In this document: in pieces, positions 3,113 through 60,876 of the stretch
Numbering within the stretch: the stretch's first letter is position 1
How the letters are laid out: each line of letters begins with the position of its first letter
From: Prochlorococcus sp. AG-436-O11
GTDB lineage: Bacteria; Cyanobacteriota; Cyanobacteriia; PCC-6307; Cyanobiaceae
DNA: 64,000 nt
Assembly (NCBI GenBank): GCA_003212535.1
Contig: QCPO01000005.1
Coordinates: 1 to 64,000 of the forward strand
Direction of reading: 5' to 3'
Program-made: the position numbers and the translations under genes
The notes under the pieces: model-generated
What the model saw: only the letters and a program-made list of their open reading frames with translations
The model's database searches: none
Told to the model about the DNA's origin: nothing

Positions 3113-5722
3113 TTAATTAATTATGGAATCTATTACCTCTCTTGTATTAGGTGATAGTTTATTATTCTTTATATAATTAAGTGTTTCAATCATATTACTT
3201 TTGTAAGGTTCGATATAATATTTAAACCTGCTGAATATTTTTATAAAACGAGATATAACAATAGGATTTAATTTGTCATATTCTATGATCTTTGTTGAAA
3301 TATATTTATAACCTGATCCATCAATTGCATGAAAAAATCTATTCTTTGTTACGTAAGCATTTAAAATTGCTCTTAATGTGTTTGGTGATTTTAAATCAAA
3401 ATATATATTCTTGAACAAATTTTCAATAATTTTATGATTATCATCAATTTCAATAGAGGCTTGATAGGAGAACCAACTATCGAGTACAACACTATTTTCT
3501 TTCCATTTTTCAAAAAATATTTTTGAGATTAATTTTCTCTCAGGACAATCAATTCTTATAAATACATTCAATGCTGCTTTTGCAAGTGTCATTGAATCTC
3601 CACTAACATAATTTATTATTTTATTTTTAATTTCTTCATCCTTACTATGTAAAAGTAGTTTCCATAGTGTCTCAATTAGTTTTCTTTCATCTTTGCCATT
3701 CGGCCAAATTTTGTCTAAATTAATTTCAATCTCATCGAGCTTACAATATAATTCTTTTTTTAATTCCGTACCAAATAAAAAATTTAATTCATCAATAGTT
3801 TTATATACTTTTAATGGATCTATATCGATTATCTCTGATTCTATTTCTGAAAACGTCGGAATACTAAGTATTTCTGATAAAAGAGATAAATTTATTTCTT
3901 TATTTTTTATAATTATTGAACCTAACGTCTTTATTAATTTCTTTTCAATGTTAATATCGTGATTGTCATCTAACCTATTTATAATTATTGTTTTATAGAG
4001 TCCTTTGACGGTATCAAAAATCGTGAAATAATCTGTTTCAGACTCTATTATTAATAATTTTTCATTAAATGTAGTATCTGTTTCCCACTCAACAGGAGCT
4101 GAAAATGAACGAAAGTAAGTAACTATAGGAATTTCCTTGTCGGTTTTGATTTTTTCAAAAATAAATTCTTCTTTTTTTTCTTTTAGGACAATTTGTTTTG
4201 TATATTTTTTCTCATTATTAAATAAAATAGCTATATCTATAGGAATTATTAATGGTAAATCATTATAAGAATTGTTTGCAAAAGGATTACTTTGGGAGAC
4301 CTGAATTGTAAGATTTTGATTCTTTTCGTCCCAAATTCTCTTAAACTTAACTTTTGGCGTTCCATTTTGTTTGTACCAGATTTTAATTTTTTCAGTATTT
4401 ATCTCTTTATTATTCTTTAAAATTTCATATATAAATTGATCGATTGTTGCTGCTTTCCCATCATATGTTGATATATAATTACTAAAACCTCTATAAAAGT
4501 TTTTTTCTTTTACAAGCGAGCAGATCATCCGTATTATTTCTGAACCTTTTTCATAAATTGTTGTTGTATAAAAATTGTCAATTTCCAGATATTTATCTGG
4601 CATTACAGGATGAGATGTTGGACCGGAATCTTCCCTAAATTGATTTCTTCTAAGAAACTTTGCATCCTCAAGTCTCTTTATTGAATAATTATGAAGATCA
4701 GCAGTAAATTGTTGGTCCCTAAATACTGTTAAACCCTCTTTTAAAGACAATTGAAACCAATCTCTGCAAGTCACTCTATTTCCAGTCCAATTATGGAAGT
4801 ATTCATGAGCAATTACTCCCTCTATTCGTTCTAATTCTTCATCAGTTGACGTTTCTGAATCTGCAAGTATCAGCTTAGAATTAAATATATTGAGACTTTT
4901 ATTTTCCATAGCGCCCATATTAAAGTGTCTTACTGCAACGATATTAAATAAAGATAAATCGTATTCAAGGTTGTATTTCTCTTCGTCCCATTTCATTGCT
5001 TTCTTTAATGAACTTATTGCATGTTGAACATATTTTTCATCGCCTTTCTCAACATATATATTTAACTCTACTTTTTGATTTGATTTTGTTGTGAAATAGT
5101 CTTTAATACATTTAAGTTTTCCTGCTACTAAGGCAAAAAGATAAGATGGCTTAGGATATGGGTCTTCCCAATGAACTTCATGCCGATTGTCTTTAAGATT
5201 TTTTTCTCTAATAATATTCCCATTTGAAAGTAAAACCGGATAATTTTGCTTGTCTGCCTCAATCCTTACGGTGTATTTGCTTAGAATATCTGGCCTGTCA
5301 GCATGATAACTTATTCTTCTAAATCCCTCTGCTTCGCATTGTGTGGTAATAATCCCATTACTTTCATACATTCCTAAAAGGGAAACATTTCTCTTTGGCT
5401 TGATTATGCCCTCTATTGTTAATGAGAAACTTTCATTATTTATATTGTTAATTATTAAACGATATTTTTGCTGTTTATAGTTATTCGCATCTAACAGCTC
5501 TTCATCAATATATATTTTTTTAATAAATATGTCTGTCCCATCAAGAACAAGATTTTTAGTTTTTTTATTTCTTTTTTTTACTTTAAGTTTCGTTATAACA
5601 GTAACTTCTTCTTTCTCAATAACAAAATCTAAAAAAGTTTCAGGTATTTCATAATCAAATTCTTTATAGTCCTCAAGTTTTATGTATCTTGAATTATTCT
5701 TATTATCTGTTGAGCTTTTCAT
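3113..5722 (-). CDS. pepN: Aminopeptidase N (M1 family)
   Basis: Removes N-terminal amino acids from peptides in the cytoplasm. At 869 residues it matches the E. coli PepN-type length. The exopeptidase motif GAMEN lies near residues 268-272. The zinc site is HEYFHNWTGNRVTCRDW, with His306 and His310 of HExxH and the distal Glu in SLKEGLTVFRDQQF. A proton-donor Tyr is expected in the NFYTTTIYEKGSE segment. The C-terminal half is divergent and Lys/Ile/Asn-rich, as expected from the AT bias. It sits alone between a small zinc-ribbon gene and a short secreted-like protein. Family assignment is secure. Confidence 0.96.
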   Translation of the reverse strand: MKSSTDNKNNSRYIKLEDYKEFDYEIPETFLDFVIEKEEVTVITKLKVKKRNKKTKNLVLDGTDIFIKKIYIDEELLDANNYKQQKYRLIINNINNESFSLTIEGIIKPKRNVSLLGMYESNGIITTQCEAEGFRRISYHADRPDILSKYTVRIEADKQNYPVLLSNGNIIREKNLKDNRHEVHWEDPYPKPSYLFALVAGKLKCIKDYFTTKSNQKVELNIYVEKGDEKYVQHAISSLKKAMKWDEEKYNLEYDLSLFNIVAVRHFNMGAMENKSLNIFNSKLILADSETSTDEELERIEGVIAHEYFHNWTGNRVTCRDWFQLSLKEGLTVFRDQQFTADLHNYSIKRLEDAKFLRRNQFREDSGPTSHPVMPDKYLEIDNFYTTTIYEKGSEIIRMICSLVKEKNFYRGFSNYISTYDGKAATIDQFIYEILKNNKEINTEKIKIWYKQNGTPKVKFKRIWDEKNQNLTIQVSQSNPFANNSYNDLPLIIPIDIAILFNNEKKYTKQIVLKEKKEEFIFEKIKTDKEIPIVTYFRSFSAPVEWETDTTFNEKLLIIESETDYFTIFDTVKGLYKTIIINRLDDNHDINIEKKLIKTLGSIIIKNKEINLSLLSEILSIPTFSEIESEIIDIDPLKVYKTIDELNFLFGTELKKELYCKLDEIEINLDKIWPNGKDERKLIETLWKLLLHSKDEEIKNKIINYVSGDSMTLAKAALNVFIRIDCPERKLISKIFFEKWKENSVVLDSWFSYQASIEIDDNHKIIENLFKNIYFDLKSPNTLRAILNAYVTKNRFFHAIDGSGYKYISTKIIEYDKLNPIVISRFIKIFSRFKYYIEPYKSNMIETLNYIKNNKLSPNTREVIDSIIN

Positions 5723-10634: not shown

Positions 10635-11315
10635 ATGCATATTAAAAATATAGTTGCTATTGGAGGAGGAGGATTCGGACGTTCTTTAGGATCTCTAGAG
10701 ATTGAAAAATATATAATTTCATTAGTAAATAAAAAGAATCCCAAAATTTGTTTCATTCCAACAGCATCTGGAGATAATGATTTATATAAATTAAATTTCT
10801 ATAGAGCATTTTCAAAATTGAACTGCATAACAAGCCATATTGATTTTTTTTCAAGAACAGAAGAGTTAGAGGAGAAAGTTTTAGCTCAGGATATCATTTA
10901 TGTTGGCGGAGGTAATACAAAAAGTATGATCGCTGTTTGGAATGAATGGAATTTGCATACAATCTTGAAAAAGGCTTACTCAAATGGGATTGTAATGAGT
11001 GGAGTAAGTGCTGGCGCAATATGTTGGTTTGAGAAGGGAATAACAGATTCATATGCGGATAAATTAGAAATCATAGATTGTTTGGGATTTGTTAATGGCA
11101 TTGCTTGTCCACATTTTGATGAAGAGAAGGAAAGGGAACCTTATGTTTATCAAATATTACAAAAAGAAATAATTAAATCCTGTATTTGTATAGAAGGTAA
11201 TTGTGCTTTACATATAAAGAATGATTTCGAATATATTTCAATAAATTTTGGTAAGAATAAAAAGTGTATCCGAATATTTAATGAAAATAATCAGTTGAAT
11301 AAAGAAATTTTATAA
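10635..11315 (+). CDS. Peptidase S51 family protein (dipeptidase E / cyanophycinase-like)
   Basis: A 226-residue protein whose nucleophile elbow GVSAGAICWFEKG (Ser125) matches S51 peptidases, which are class I glutamine-amidotransferase-like folds. The N-terminal IVAIGGGGFG and the IYVGGGNTKSMI segment are further family features. Known members hydrolyse Asp-X dipeptides (PepE) or cyanophycin; the length and motif favour PepE-type. It lacks a signal peptide. Ends 25 bases from a convergent hypothetical gene. Confidence 0.88.
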   Translation: MHIKNIVAIGGGGFGRSLGSLEIEKYIISLVNKKNPKICFIPTASGDNDLYKLNFYRAFSKLNCITSHIDFFSRTEELEEKVLAQDIIYVGGGNTKSMIAVWNEWNLHTILKKAYSNGIVMSGVSAGAICWFEKGITDSYADKLEIIDCLGFVNGIACPHFDEEKEREPYVYQILQKEIIKSCICIEGNCALHIKNDFEYISINFGKNKKCIRIFNENNQLNKEIL

Positions 11316-33778: not shown

Positions 33779-34822
33779 ATGTCTATTAATAAATTAAATT
33801 CTGAAATCCTTAATCAATTACTTCAAGGACAAAACCTAGATGAACTTACTGCTAGGACTTTAATGAAAAGATGGCTTAATGATGAAATATTAGATGTCCA
33901 AACCGGAGCTTTTTTGTCTGCATTAAGAGCAAAGGGTTCTACCGGGATAGAATTATGTTCTATGGCAGAAGAACTTTTAAATGTTTGTAAACTGCCTATG
34001 GCGAGACCAGATCTTTTTATGGTTGATACATGTGGTACTGGAGGTGATGGGGCTAATACTTTTAATATATCTACTGCTGTAGCTTTTGTAGCAGCATCTT
34101 GCGGAGTTAAAATAGCCAAACATGGAAATAAAAGTGCTAGTGGTAAAGTTGGCTCTGCTGATGTTTTGTTAAATCTTGGAATAAATTTAAATTCTTCTTT
34201 AGAAAATGTTATATCTGCAATAGGCGAGATTGGAATCACCTTTTTATTTGCTCCTGTTTGGCATAAATCATTAATAAAACTAGCCCCTTTAAGAAAGGCT
34301 CTTGGTATTAGAACTGTTTTTAATCAACTTGGACCCTTGGTAAATCCTTTAAGACCTAATGCACAAGTTTTGGGTGTAGCATCTGAAGATCTTTTAGAAC
34401 CAATGGCATCTGCTCTTTGTAAGATGGGAATGAATAGAGCAATAGTTGTTCACGGTTCTGGGGGGCTTGATGAGGCCTCACTTCAAGGTGATAATAAAAT
34501 TATATTTGTCGAGAATGGCAAATTAACCAATTCTAAACTTAATATCTCTGATTTTAACCTTGCTAATATTCCTAATAGCAAGCTTGTTGTATCTGATCAT
34601 GAATCTAATGAGCAAATATTAGAATCTGTTTTGAATGGTTCTGGCCAAATAGCTCAAAATTATGTTGTAGCATTAAACACTGCTTTAGTTCTATGGGTCG
34701 CGGGAGTAGAAGACAATTTACAAGAAGGATTTAACCAAGCTTTATTTTCAATAAAAGAAGCATATCCTTGGCAAAAATTTTTAAAACTAAGAAGTTATCT
34801 TTCCCCAGAGTTGTCAAATTAA
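33779..34822 (+). CDS. trpD: Anthranilate phosphoribosyltransferase
   Basis: Second step of tryptophan synthesis: anthranilate plus PRPP to phosphoribosylanthranilate. A 347-residue protein with [18 protein letters not shown] (PRPP/Mg site), [18 protein letters not shown] and [19 protein letters not shown], all near-identical to characterised TrpD. Its TAA overlaps the carA ATG by one base, so trpD and carA are translationally coupled. Confidence 0.96.
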
Positions 34823-35967
34823 TGTCAATGAATAATCCTTATAAGAAAAATGCAAAACTAGTTCTTAGTAATGGAATTACTTTTCCTGCTTTTTCTTTTG
34901 GAGCTTCTGGAACAACAGTAGGCGAAATCGTTTTTAATACAGGAATGACAGGTTATCAGGAGGTAATAACTGATCCAAGTTATTATGGTCAAATTCTTAC
35001 CTTTACATATCCAGAAATTGGTAATACTGGAATTAATCAAGAGGATTCAGAATCCAGTATCACTGTTAAGGGAATAATAGTACGTAATTATTCCTCAAAT
35101 AATACAAATTGGAGATCAGAAAAGAATTTTAATCAATGGCTTATTGAAAAAAATATTATTGGACTTTATGGAATAGATACAAGAGCACTAGTCAAAATAT
35201 TAAGATCTAATGGTTCAATGAATGGACTTATTACATCAGAAGATAGAGATATAAAAAGTTGTCTAAAGGTAATTTCTGATACCCCTAAAATGGAAGGATT
35301 AAATTTATCCAAGGAAGTATCAACTAAAAAGAATTATATTTGGAAAACTACAACAAAAACAAATTTTGACATAAGAAAAAAGAATTCAAATCATTTAAAT
35401 AAATTAAAAATAATAGCAATAGATTTTGGAATAAAGGAATCTATTTTAAATAGACTTGTTTCTCATGGATGTGAAATTTTAGTTTTACCGTACACATCTT
35501 CGTTTAAGGATATTTTAGATAGAAAGCCTGATGGGATATTTTTCTCTAATGGTCCAGGCGATCCCTCTTCAGTCTTTGAGGGAATTAATTTAGCCAAATT
35601 ACTTATTGATTACGGAAAGATTCCTATGTTTGGGATTTGTCTTGGCCATCAAATATTTGGATTAGCATTAGGAGGCTCTACTTATAAATTGTCCTTTGGA
35701 CATAGAGGTTTAAATCATCCATGTGGAAGAAATAATAAAATTGAGATAACTAGTCAGAATCATGGGTTTGCTATTGATCCTGATTCTCTACCAAAAGACA
35801 TAGTAAAAATTACTCATTTTAATCTTAATGATAATACTGTTGCTGGTTTGCAAGTAAATAATAAGCCAATATTTAGTGTTCAATATCACCCAGAAGCAGG
35901 ACCTGGTCCACATGATTCAGATTACTTATTTAAAAAATTTGTTTCTCTAATGTTAGAAAGATGTTGA
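34822..35967 (+). CDS. carA: Carbamoyl-phosphate synthase small subunit
   Basis: Glutaminase subunit that feeds ammonia to CarB for arginine and pyrimidine synthesis. A 381-residue protein from the ATG in TAATG: SNGITFPAFSFG and NTGMTGYQEVITDPSYYGQI form the CarA-specific N-terminal domain. The class I GATase domain has FGICLGHQIFGLALGG (nucleophile Cys) and QYHPEAGPGPHDSDYLF (His and Glu). A longer frame from inside trpD exists but the ATG is at the usual family start. carB is not in the window. Confidence 0.96.
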   Translation: MSMNNPYKKNAKLVLSNGITFPAFSFGASGTTVGEIVFNTGMTGYQEVITDPSYYGQILTFTYPEIGNTGINQEDSESSITVKGIIVRNYSSNNTNWRSEKNFNQWLIEKNIIGLYGIDTRALVKILRSNGSMNGLITSEDRDIKSCLKVISDTPKMEGLNLSKEVSTKKNYIWKTTTKTNFDIRKKNSNHLNKLKIIAIDFGIKESILNRLVSHGCEILVLPYTSSFKDILDRKPDGIFFSNGPGDPSSVFEGINLAKLLIDYGKIPMFGICLGHQIFGLALGGSTYKLSFGHRGLNHPCGRNNKIEITSQNHGFAIDPDSLPKDIVKITHFNLNDNTVAGLQVNNKPIFSVQYHPEAGPGPHDSDYLFKKFVSLMLERC

Positions 35968-36031
35968 CATATTGTTTTCTTTTGATTTGATAATTACATT
36001 TGATACATTATTTTTTTGGAGGGACTAAGTC

Positions 36032-36403
36032 ATAGAAGAATTTCAAAAGCTAACTGTTTCTTTAAGAGGAAACATCGATCTAAAGACAAATATTATTGTT
36101 TTTACTTTTAAAGGTCAGCTTGATGCATTTTCAGAAAAACAATTTAAGGATTTTGTTACTAATAACCTTAGAAATAATTCAAAGGCTCTTGCATTTGTAA
36201 TTGATCTTACAAATATTGATTTCCTCGACTCAAGTGGTTTAGGTGCACTTGTTCAGACTTCTAAAGAATGTAAAAAGCTTAAATTAGGGTTTTCTGTTGT
36301 AGGAAATTCTAGAGTTGCGCAAACCATTAAGCTTGTTCGTTTAGGTGACTTTCTTAATTTAAAACCTACCCTTGAAGAAGCATTACTTAATTTGAAAAAT
36401 TGA
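36032..36403 (+). CDS. STAS-domain anti-anti-sigma factor with a non-canonical (ATA) start
   Basis: A 123-residue STAS protein: VFTFKGQLDAFSEKQFKDFV, then ALAFVIDLTNIDFLDSSGLG with the phosphorylatable Ser67 and VVGNSRVAQTIKLVRLGDFL. This is the SpoIIAA/RsbV pattern of partner-switching proteins. No ATG, GTG or TTG exists in the frame except one TTG near the stop. The upstream in-frame stop lies six bases before the ATA at 36032, which has a strong GGAGGG eight bases before it. ATA (read as Met) or GTC is therefore the start. Its stop overlaps the TTG start of mini-RNase III. Confidence 0.85.
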   Translation: MEEFQKLTVSLRGNIDLKTNIIVFTFKGQLDAFSEKQFKDFVTNNLRNNSKALAFVIDLTNIDFLDSSGLGALVQTSKECKKLKLGFSVVGNSRVAQTIKLVRLGDFLNLKPTLEEALLNLKN

Positions 36404-36798
36404 ATTATTGGATTCAGAATCTTATCCCATATGGCTCTCCAGAGGAAATTGGCGTCATACAGCTTGCTTGGCTTGGTGATTCCGTATGGGAACTTCATCA
36501 AAGATTAAGATATGTTCATTTTCCTTTGAAATCTAAGGAACTCCATTTATCAGTAGTAAATGAAGTAAAAGCAAAAGCTCAATCAAAATCATTAAGCCAA
36601 ATTGAACATTTATTAAATTCTTTTGAAATTGATTTGATTAGACGAGCTAGAAATAAAACTAAACGATATCCCAAGTCTGCAGAACCCTTTATATACTCAA
36701 GAGCAACTGGTTTCGAGACTCTTATTGGCTGGCTATTTCTAAAAGACCCCAAAAGACTATCACATTTTTTCGAATATCTAGAGAAAAAAATGCATTGA
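36400..36798 (+). CDS. mrnC: Mini-ribonuclease 3
   Basis: Matures 23S rRNA ends in many Gram-positive and cyanobacteria. A 132-residue RNase III catalytic domain without a dsRBD: LAWLGDSVWELHQRLRYV holds the catalytic Asp region, HLSVVNEVKAKAQS the substrate helix, and IYSRATGFETLIGWLFLKD the ETLIGWL end. The start is TTG, overlapping the stop of the STAS gene by four bases (TTGA), so translation is coupled. The rRNA methyltransferase gene follows by 4 bases. Confidence 0.9.
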   Translation: MNYWIQNLIPYGSPEEIGVIQLAWLGDSVWELHQRLRYVHFPLKSKELHLSVVNEVKAKAQSKSLSQIEHLLNSFEIDLIRRARNKTKRYPKSAEPFIYSRATGFETLIGWLFLKDPKRLSHFFEYLEKKMH

Positions 36799-60441: not shown

Positions 60442-60876
60442 ATGTCCTTTTTTCAGGGCAAAAATATTTTAAAAATATTACTTAAGAGACCAAGAATTTA
60501 CTGGTCAATTTTTGAATTTGAATCTTCATTGCAAATAAATGAATTTGTAGAATTATTATTAGAGCCAATACAAACCTATCATTCAATATATCGAATTAAA
60601 CTTGGCTTACATGAAGCTCTAGTTAATGCTGTTAAGCATGGAAATAACTTAGATCCAAAGAAAAATGTTAGAGTTAGAAGAATTATTACTCCTAATTGGT
60701 GTGTTTGGCAGATTCAAGATCAAGGTAATGGCTTAGAGATTAAAAATAGAAATTATAAATTACCAGCAAAAGCAAGCAGTGTTTGTGGCCGTGGTCTTTA
60801 TCTTATAAATGAATGTTTTGATGATATCAGATGGAGTAGTAAAGGGAATCGGTTGCAGTTGGCTTTAAAAAGATGA
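60442..60876 (+). CDS. RsbW/SpoIIAB-like anti-sigma histidine-kinase-fold protein
   Basis: A 144-residue HATPase_c domain: the N box in IKLGLHEALVNAVKHGNNLD, the G1 box in WQIQDQGNGLEI and the G2 box in SSVCGRGLYLINECFDDIRW. Small stand-alone proteins with these boxes are serine kinases that phosphorylate STAS proteins and hold sigma factors. The STAS gene at 36.0 kb is a possible partner. Its stop overlaps the end of the convergent small gene. Confidence 0.85.
   Translation: MSFFQGKNILKILLKRPRIYWSIFEFESSLQINEFVELLLEPIQTYHSIYRIKLGLHEALVNAVKHGNNLDPKKNVRVRRIITPNWCVWQIQDQGNGLEIKNRNYKLPAKASSVCGRGLYLINECFDDIRWSSKGNRLQLALKR

Follow-up and report, generated by a model that had tools for sequence, protein, structure and literature searches.

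The STAS gene at 36032-36403 (+) of the window (the whole analysed stretch of 64,000 nucleotides) has no canonical start codon, and this is a real feature far beyond chance, because ATA stood at the start position in 95 of 95 distinct loci from high-light (HL) Prochlorococcus (114 of 114 fetched) and a canonical start (ATG, GTG or TTG) in 0 of 195 distinct cyanobacterial loci (95 from HL strains, 32 from other Cyanobiaceae, 48 from other families and 20 further ones). From the comparative sequence data it is quite probable, all parts being judged jointly, that translation of the gene starts at AUA, that the weak AUH class of start codons (AUA, AUU or AUC) behind a strong Shine-Dalgarno (SD) site is kept to limit the dose of the product, and that the encoded protein is a functional anti-sigma-factor antagonist in a partner-switching module.

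The open frame spans 36029-36403 (+) and reads GTC and ATA directly after an in-frame TAA (36026-36028), then GAA GAA TTT CAA AAG, and ends with the stop codon TGA at 36401-36403. Counted from the ATA at 36032-36034, which was assigned as the start codon on a comparative sequence basis, the predicted product is a SpoIIAA/RsbV-type anti-sigma-factor antagonist of 123 amino acids. The SD sequence GGAGGG (36018-36023, +) lies 8 nt 5' of ATA. This spacing was as given in the earlier note, which had the frame itself begin at 36018; positions 36018-36023 are the SD sequence and ATA begins at 36032. Two further observations made there were borne out, namely an in-frame stop just before ATA and the lack of a canonical start until the last codons: the TAA, separated from ATA by the single codon GTC, rules out an in-frame start further 5', and within the gene the sole in-frame canonical codon, a TTG, has index 120 (0-based) of 123, with none before codon 121.

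For the comparison within HL Prochlorococcus, 114 loci of the same genus (95 distinct) were used, the HL label being taken from an earlier reading and from related records. Alignment of the start codon across the HL strains, proposed in the earlier note as a check, gave ATA everywhere and ATG in no strain, with a GGAGG-type site 7-10 nt 5' and a variable codon directly before ATA. On an HL tree built from the flanking DNA, 0 changes were counted at each of the three bases of the start codon; at the third positions of 79 conserved codons the median was 7 changes, and one codon had zero. Codon usage was rejected as the cause of ATA, since ATT was about four times commoner than ATA in HL gene bodies and two other conserved isoleucine columns of STAS were mixed (ATT, ATA and ATC), with 13 changes each on the same tree. 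An in-frame stop was present two codons or fewer 5' of AUA in 76 of the 95 distinct HL loci, and no in-frame canonical start was present 5' of AUA in 84 of 95, for which an in-frame start further 5' was thereby excluded. AUA is fixed in HL Prochlorococcus with no drift among the AUH codons, and a constraint beyond that of a weak start may exist in this group.

Among 32 loci from other Cyanobiaceae the start position was occupied by ATA (18), ATC (9) or ATT (5), one locus (L136) with a small insertion after the start being hand-aligned to ATC; among 48 loci from other families it was occupied by ATT (39), ATC (8) or ATA (1), and among 20 further loci (15 from other families and 5 from Cyanobiaceae) by ATT (15), ATC (3), ATA (1) or CTG (1). 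AUH was thus present in all 195 distinct loci but one (CUG), its third base shifting among A, T and C between lineages and G being avoided. The sampling of loci was weighted to high-scoring matches and not to any start codon, and lineages were assigned by kinship only. Strong STAS orthologs were found throughout the oxygenic class, and outside it weak STAS matches alone; as judged from these alignments, the non-canonical start is a trait of the oxygenic cyanobacteria sampled and not a quirk of HL strains. An SD or SD-like site was located 5' of AUH in 95 of 95 HL loci, 31 of 32 loci from other Cyanobiaceae and 48 of 48 from other families, and no ATG, GTG or TTG occurred in any frame 3-12 nt after it in 93 of 95, 31 of 31 and 47 of 48 loci, respectively. 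A frameshift model, with canonical initiation 3' of the SD site in a different frame, was rejected, no such codon being present in these 93 HL loci. A conserved promoter is not relied on here, a TA[CT]A[CA]T-like motif being located 5' in 29 of 32 and 32 of 48 non-HL loci and in 5 of 114 HL loci (raw counts).

The rarity of genes of this kind was estimated by comparing 0.82 Mb of the source genome with 0.80 Mb of a related genome (G225), antisense shadow frames being removed before the counting of 399 reciprocal-best ortholog pairs. A canonical start was in reach in both genomes for 395 of the 399 pairs, and the source genome was without one in four, which were the STAS gene, yfiH, cobS and an ABC transporter. 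The ABC-2 transporter (contig C21, L305, about 10640-10770) looks frameshifted, with its N-terminal part in another frame, and this is perhaps an error of the draft assembly. At the conserved N-terminus of cobS (PF02654; contig C18, L302:5232-5993; genus set L340-L369), ATC was present in 30 of 30 loci, with a canonical start absent there and directly 5' of it in nearly all 30 and the SD site not clear. The yfiH-like gene (contig C4, L310; genus set L310-L339), which we take to belong to the multicopper oxidase/PgeF family, had no canonical start across the genus; at the start position stood ATT (ATA or ATC in some), preceded by a site of the AGGAG type and in many cases by an in-frame stop a few codons 5'. 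The infC gene, scored in the source genome alone, has an ordinary ATG 18 codons before the conserved INERI motif (contig C1, about 3970-4030, minus strand, L266). It was therefore rejected as a second AUH-start gene here, and the sequence of this genome gives no sign that IF3 is autoregulated through AUU.

The STAS protein matched PF01740 with 63.4 bits (E-value 1.9e-17, cut-off 22.6) as a single STAS domain, and the TIGR00377 anti-sigma antagonist model with 67.8 bits against a cut-off of 53.45. The frame was intact in all sampled loci, and the DSSG motif (36227-36238, +), with the predicted phosphorylated serines S67 and S68 (S59 and S60 in Ssr1600), was present in 174 of 174 distinct STAS proteins. 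In the source genome (80% complete) this gene was the only stand-alone STAS gene found, the other two STAS matches being located in frames of about 530 amino acids that are probably SulP-type transporters. A candidate partner anti-sigma factor, an RsbW/SpoIIAB-like serine kinase (HATPase_c_2) with an ATG start, is encoded at 60442-60876 (+); its PF13581 match (60586-60861) is the sole one of the 80% complete genome and lies, like the STAS gene, within the 64-kb window. This kinase is possibly the counterpart of PmgA or Slr1861. One SpoIIE-type phosphatase was detected as a single PF07228 match on contig C7. As far as the 80% complete genome shows, one STAS protein, one RsbW-like kinase and one SpoIIE-type phosphatase would make up a minimal partner switch.

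Ssr1600 of Synechocystis is the probable ortholog of the STAS protein, a match made on four published residue positions and wide family conservation and not on the full Synechocystis sequence. Residues L24, G43, S59 and S60 of Ssr1600 map with one constant offset to family residues 30, 49, 65 and 66, which in members outside Prochlorococcus are L (sometimes M), G, S and S, respectively; these positions also fit STAS proteins generally. The orthology fits poorly with the gene name, because 'ssr' names usually denote products of fewer than 100 amino acids. If it holds, the annotated start of Ssr1600 would lie 6 codons 3' of the AUH codon, as the differing residue numbering implies (PMC12329169). 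Ssr1600 is an anti-sigma antagonist that is bound and phosphorylated by Slr1861 and controls the formation of RNAP-SigC; its lowering rescues a sigma-imbalance mutant, and cells that overexpress it grow more slowly in high CO2 (PMC12329169). In the Ssr1600/Slr1861/PmgA-SigC switch of Synechocystis (PMC12329169, which cites Nakamura et al. 2024), the STAS antagonist is likewise conserved in cyanobacteria. The main text of the Ssr1600 paper (PMC12329169) has no mention of the start codon. In the literature, no earlier report of an AUA or AUU start in this STAS gene or in cyanobacteria was found; Nakamura et al. 2024 may mention one.

In the proposed mechanism, the strong SD site most likely draws the 30S subunit to the STAS leader, where IF3 would reject most initiation complexes with fMet-tRNA mispaired at the third codon base. 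Of the three bases of AUU, AUA or AUC, only two pair with fMet-tRNA. The output of antagonist would thus be low and IF3-limited, and would stay below the level of its kinase/anti-sigma partner. A change to AUG, GUG or UUG would produce an excess of antagonist, which would titrate away its anti-sigma partner and release the sigma factor; such a change would hence be selected against, as is suggested by the absence of such changes from the loci together with the sigR precedent. Selection for a weak start predicts the pattern observed, namely a strong SD site and a third base free except for G. The actual initiation at AUA, the low dose, the discrimination by IF3 and the harm from AUG are the parts that we infer. 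The suggestion in the earlier note that AUA is a weak start like the AUU of infC stands as regards the AUH class, the conserved SD site and the constant lack of a canonical codon; the parallel with infC is an analogy, infC of the source genome having ATG.

To our knowledge, conserved starts outside AUG, GUG and UUG are known for very few genes. The infC gene starts with AUU in Escherichia coli and with AUC in Streptomyces and is autoregulatory; it resembles the STAS gene in having an AUH start of the class discriminated by IF3 and differs in its autoregulation, the STAS protein being no translation factor. The sigR gene of Streptomyces has a GUC start behind AGGAGGTG, IF3 represses its translation, and the sigma switch becomes deregulated when GUC is exchanged for a canonical codon (PMC5472188). 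It resembles the STAS gene in its place in a sigma switch and in its conserved non-canonical start and strong conserved SD site, and also in its misannotated start, in a 3' gene overlapping at the stop/start and in a critical dose ratio (PMC5472188). In sigR, however, the codon is GUC or GUU, is conserved within one genus (34 genomes) and is located in the gene of the sigma factor itself (PMC5472188), whereas AUH is located in an anti-anti-sigma gene of oxygenic cyanobacteria; IF3 repression was tested in sigR and would apply to STAS by inference. In Listeria rsbW, reporter measurements ranked the starts as ATG > ATA > ATT, and weak starts shifted SigB activity (PMC13068326). There AUA or AUU lowers the translation of a partner-switch protein and shifts sigma activity, as it would in STAS, but the rsbW changes are recent laboratory-selected mutations in the kinase gene (PMC13068326), whereas the AUH start of the antagonist gene would be of ancient origin and fixed. 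Conserved non-canonical starts as such are already known from infC and sigR. Within the literature searched, one of the AUH class that is fixed in an anti-anti-sigma gene throughout the oxygenic cyanobacteria apparently has no earlier description.

The same anatomy would be expected of a condition-gated switch, in which AUH ties the synthesis of the STAS protein to the level or activity of IF3 (with growth rate, light, carbon or stress) and so couples initiation to sigma choice. Non-canonical starts belong to the class that is IF3-sensitive and rejected by IF3 (PMC5472188), and Ssr1600, the probable ortholog, has a role in acclimation to Ci and high light (PMC12329169); but with an ATG in infC no autoregulatory loop is evident in the source genome, and the sigR study failed to show enhanced translation under stress (PMC5472188), so that we regard this gating as rather unlikely. 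Translation from a downstream canonical codon (for example TTG or GTG at codons 7-11), with AUH as non-coding or RNA-regulatory sequence, is improbable. The numbering of Ssr1600 (S59/S60) would agree with it if the protein is an ortholog, and in many non-HL genomes TTG or GTG occurs at codons 4-11, from which a shorter product is possible by sequence alone. These codons are not conserved in position, however, and the first 20 STAS codons contain no canonical codon in 88 of 95 HL loci (in 78 of 95, none is present either 5' in frame or within these 20 codons). The SD site, moreover, lies 4-10 nt from AUH and more than 20 nt from codon 7. Codons 2-13 of the HL loci vary mostly synonymously with the residues conserved, and because of this pattern protein-level constraint on the STAS sequence is taken to start at codon 2 and thus to include codons 2-6. 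Retention of the AUH triplet for an RNA reason (leader structure or binding of an sRNA or protein), its role as a start being incidental, agrees with the invariance of all three bases in HL strains; yet the third base varies among A, T and C between lineages, broadly tracking GC content within Cyanobiaceae, the leader varies between loci in both sequence and spacing, and the avoidance of G alone is what start-codon strength predicts, which makes such a reason very improbable. Decay of the gene from an ancestral ATG to ATA in the source strain, raised in the earlier note, or a sequencing error, has nothing beyond ATA itself in its favour and a probability close to nil, being ruled out by the 195 loci, with ATA in every distinct HL locus (single-contig genomes included), AUH or the one CUG in all other lineages, intact frames, a conserved DSSG motif and mostly synonymous change in codons 2-13.

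As a wider reading of the weak start, we tentatively propose, at somewhat below even probability, that an IF3-gated non-canonical start has been kept by selection since the oxygenic-cyanobacterial ancestor in this one sigma-switch gene, as a translational governor tying the fidelity or capacity of initiation to sigma choice during carbon and light acclimation. Because the start is fixed across the sampled oxygenic cyanobacteria, in a regulator with a dosage-sensitive probable ortholog, it would offer a clean natural test of whether selection acts on the weakness of a start codon as such. Exchange of one base to give ATG is predicted to overactivate the controlled sigma factor. It is also implied that the annotations of many genomes either miss the STAS gene or place its N-terminus wrongly, and Ssr1600 constructs designed from an annotated start may be without the native start codon and the low dose that goes with it.

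The 5' neighbour of the STAS gene, carA (carbamoyl-phosphate synthase small subunit; 34768-35967, +, given as the longest ORF, the true start of which may be internal), was located 5' of STAS in 114 of 114 HL loci, 31 of 32 loci from other Cyanobiaceae and 22 of 48 from other cyanobacteria. On the 3' side, a mini-III ribonuclease-like gene (RNase III domain) with a TTG start (36400-36798, +) followed STAS in 114 of 114, 32 of 32 and 30 of 48 loci, respectively. Its TTG overlaps the STAS stop codon as TTGA (window 36398-36403), an arrangement which suggests that STAS and mini-III could be translationally coupled, and the weak STAS start may, through such coupling, also limit mini-III.
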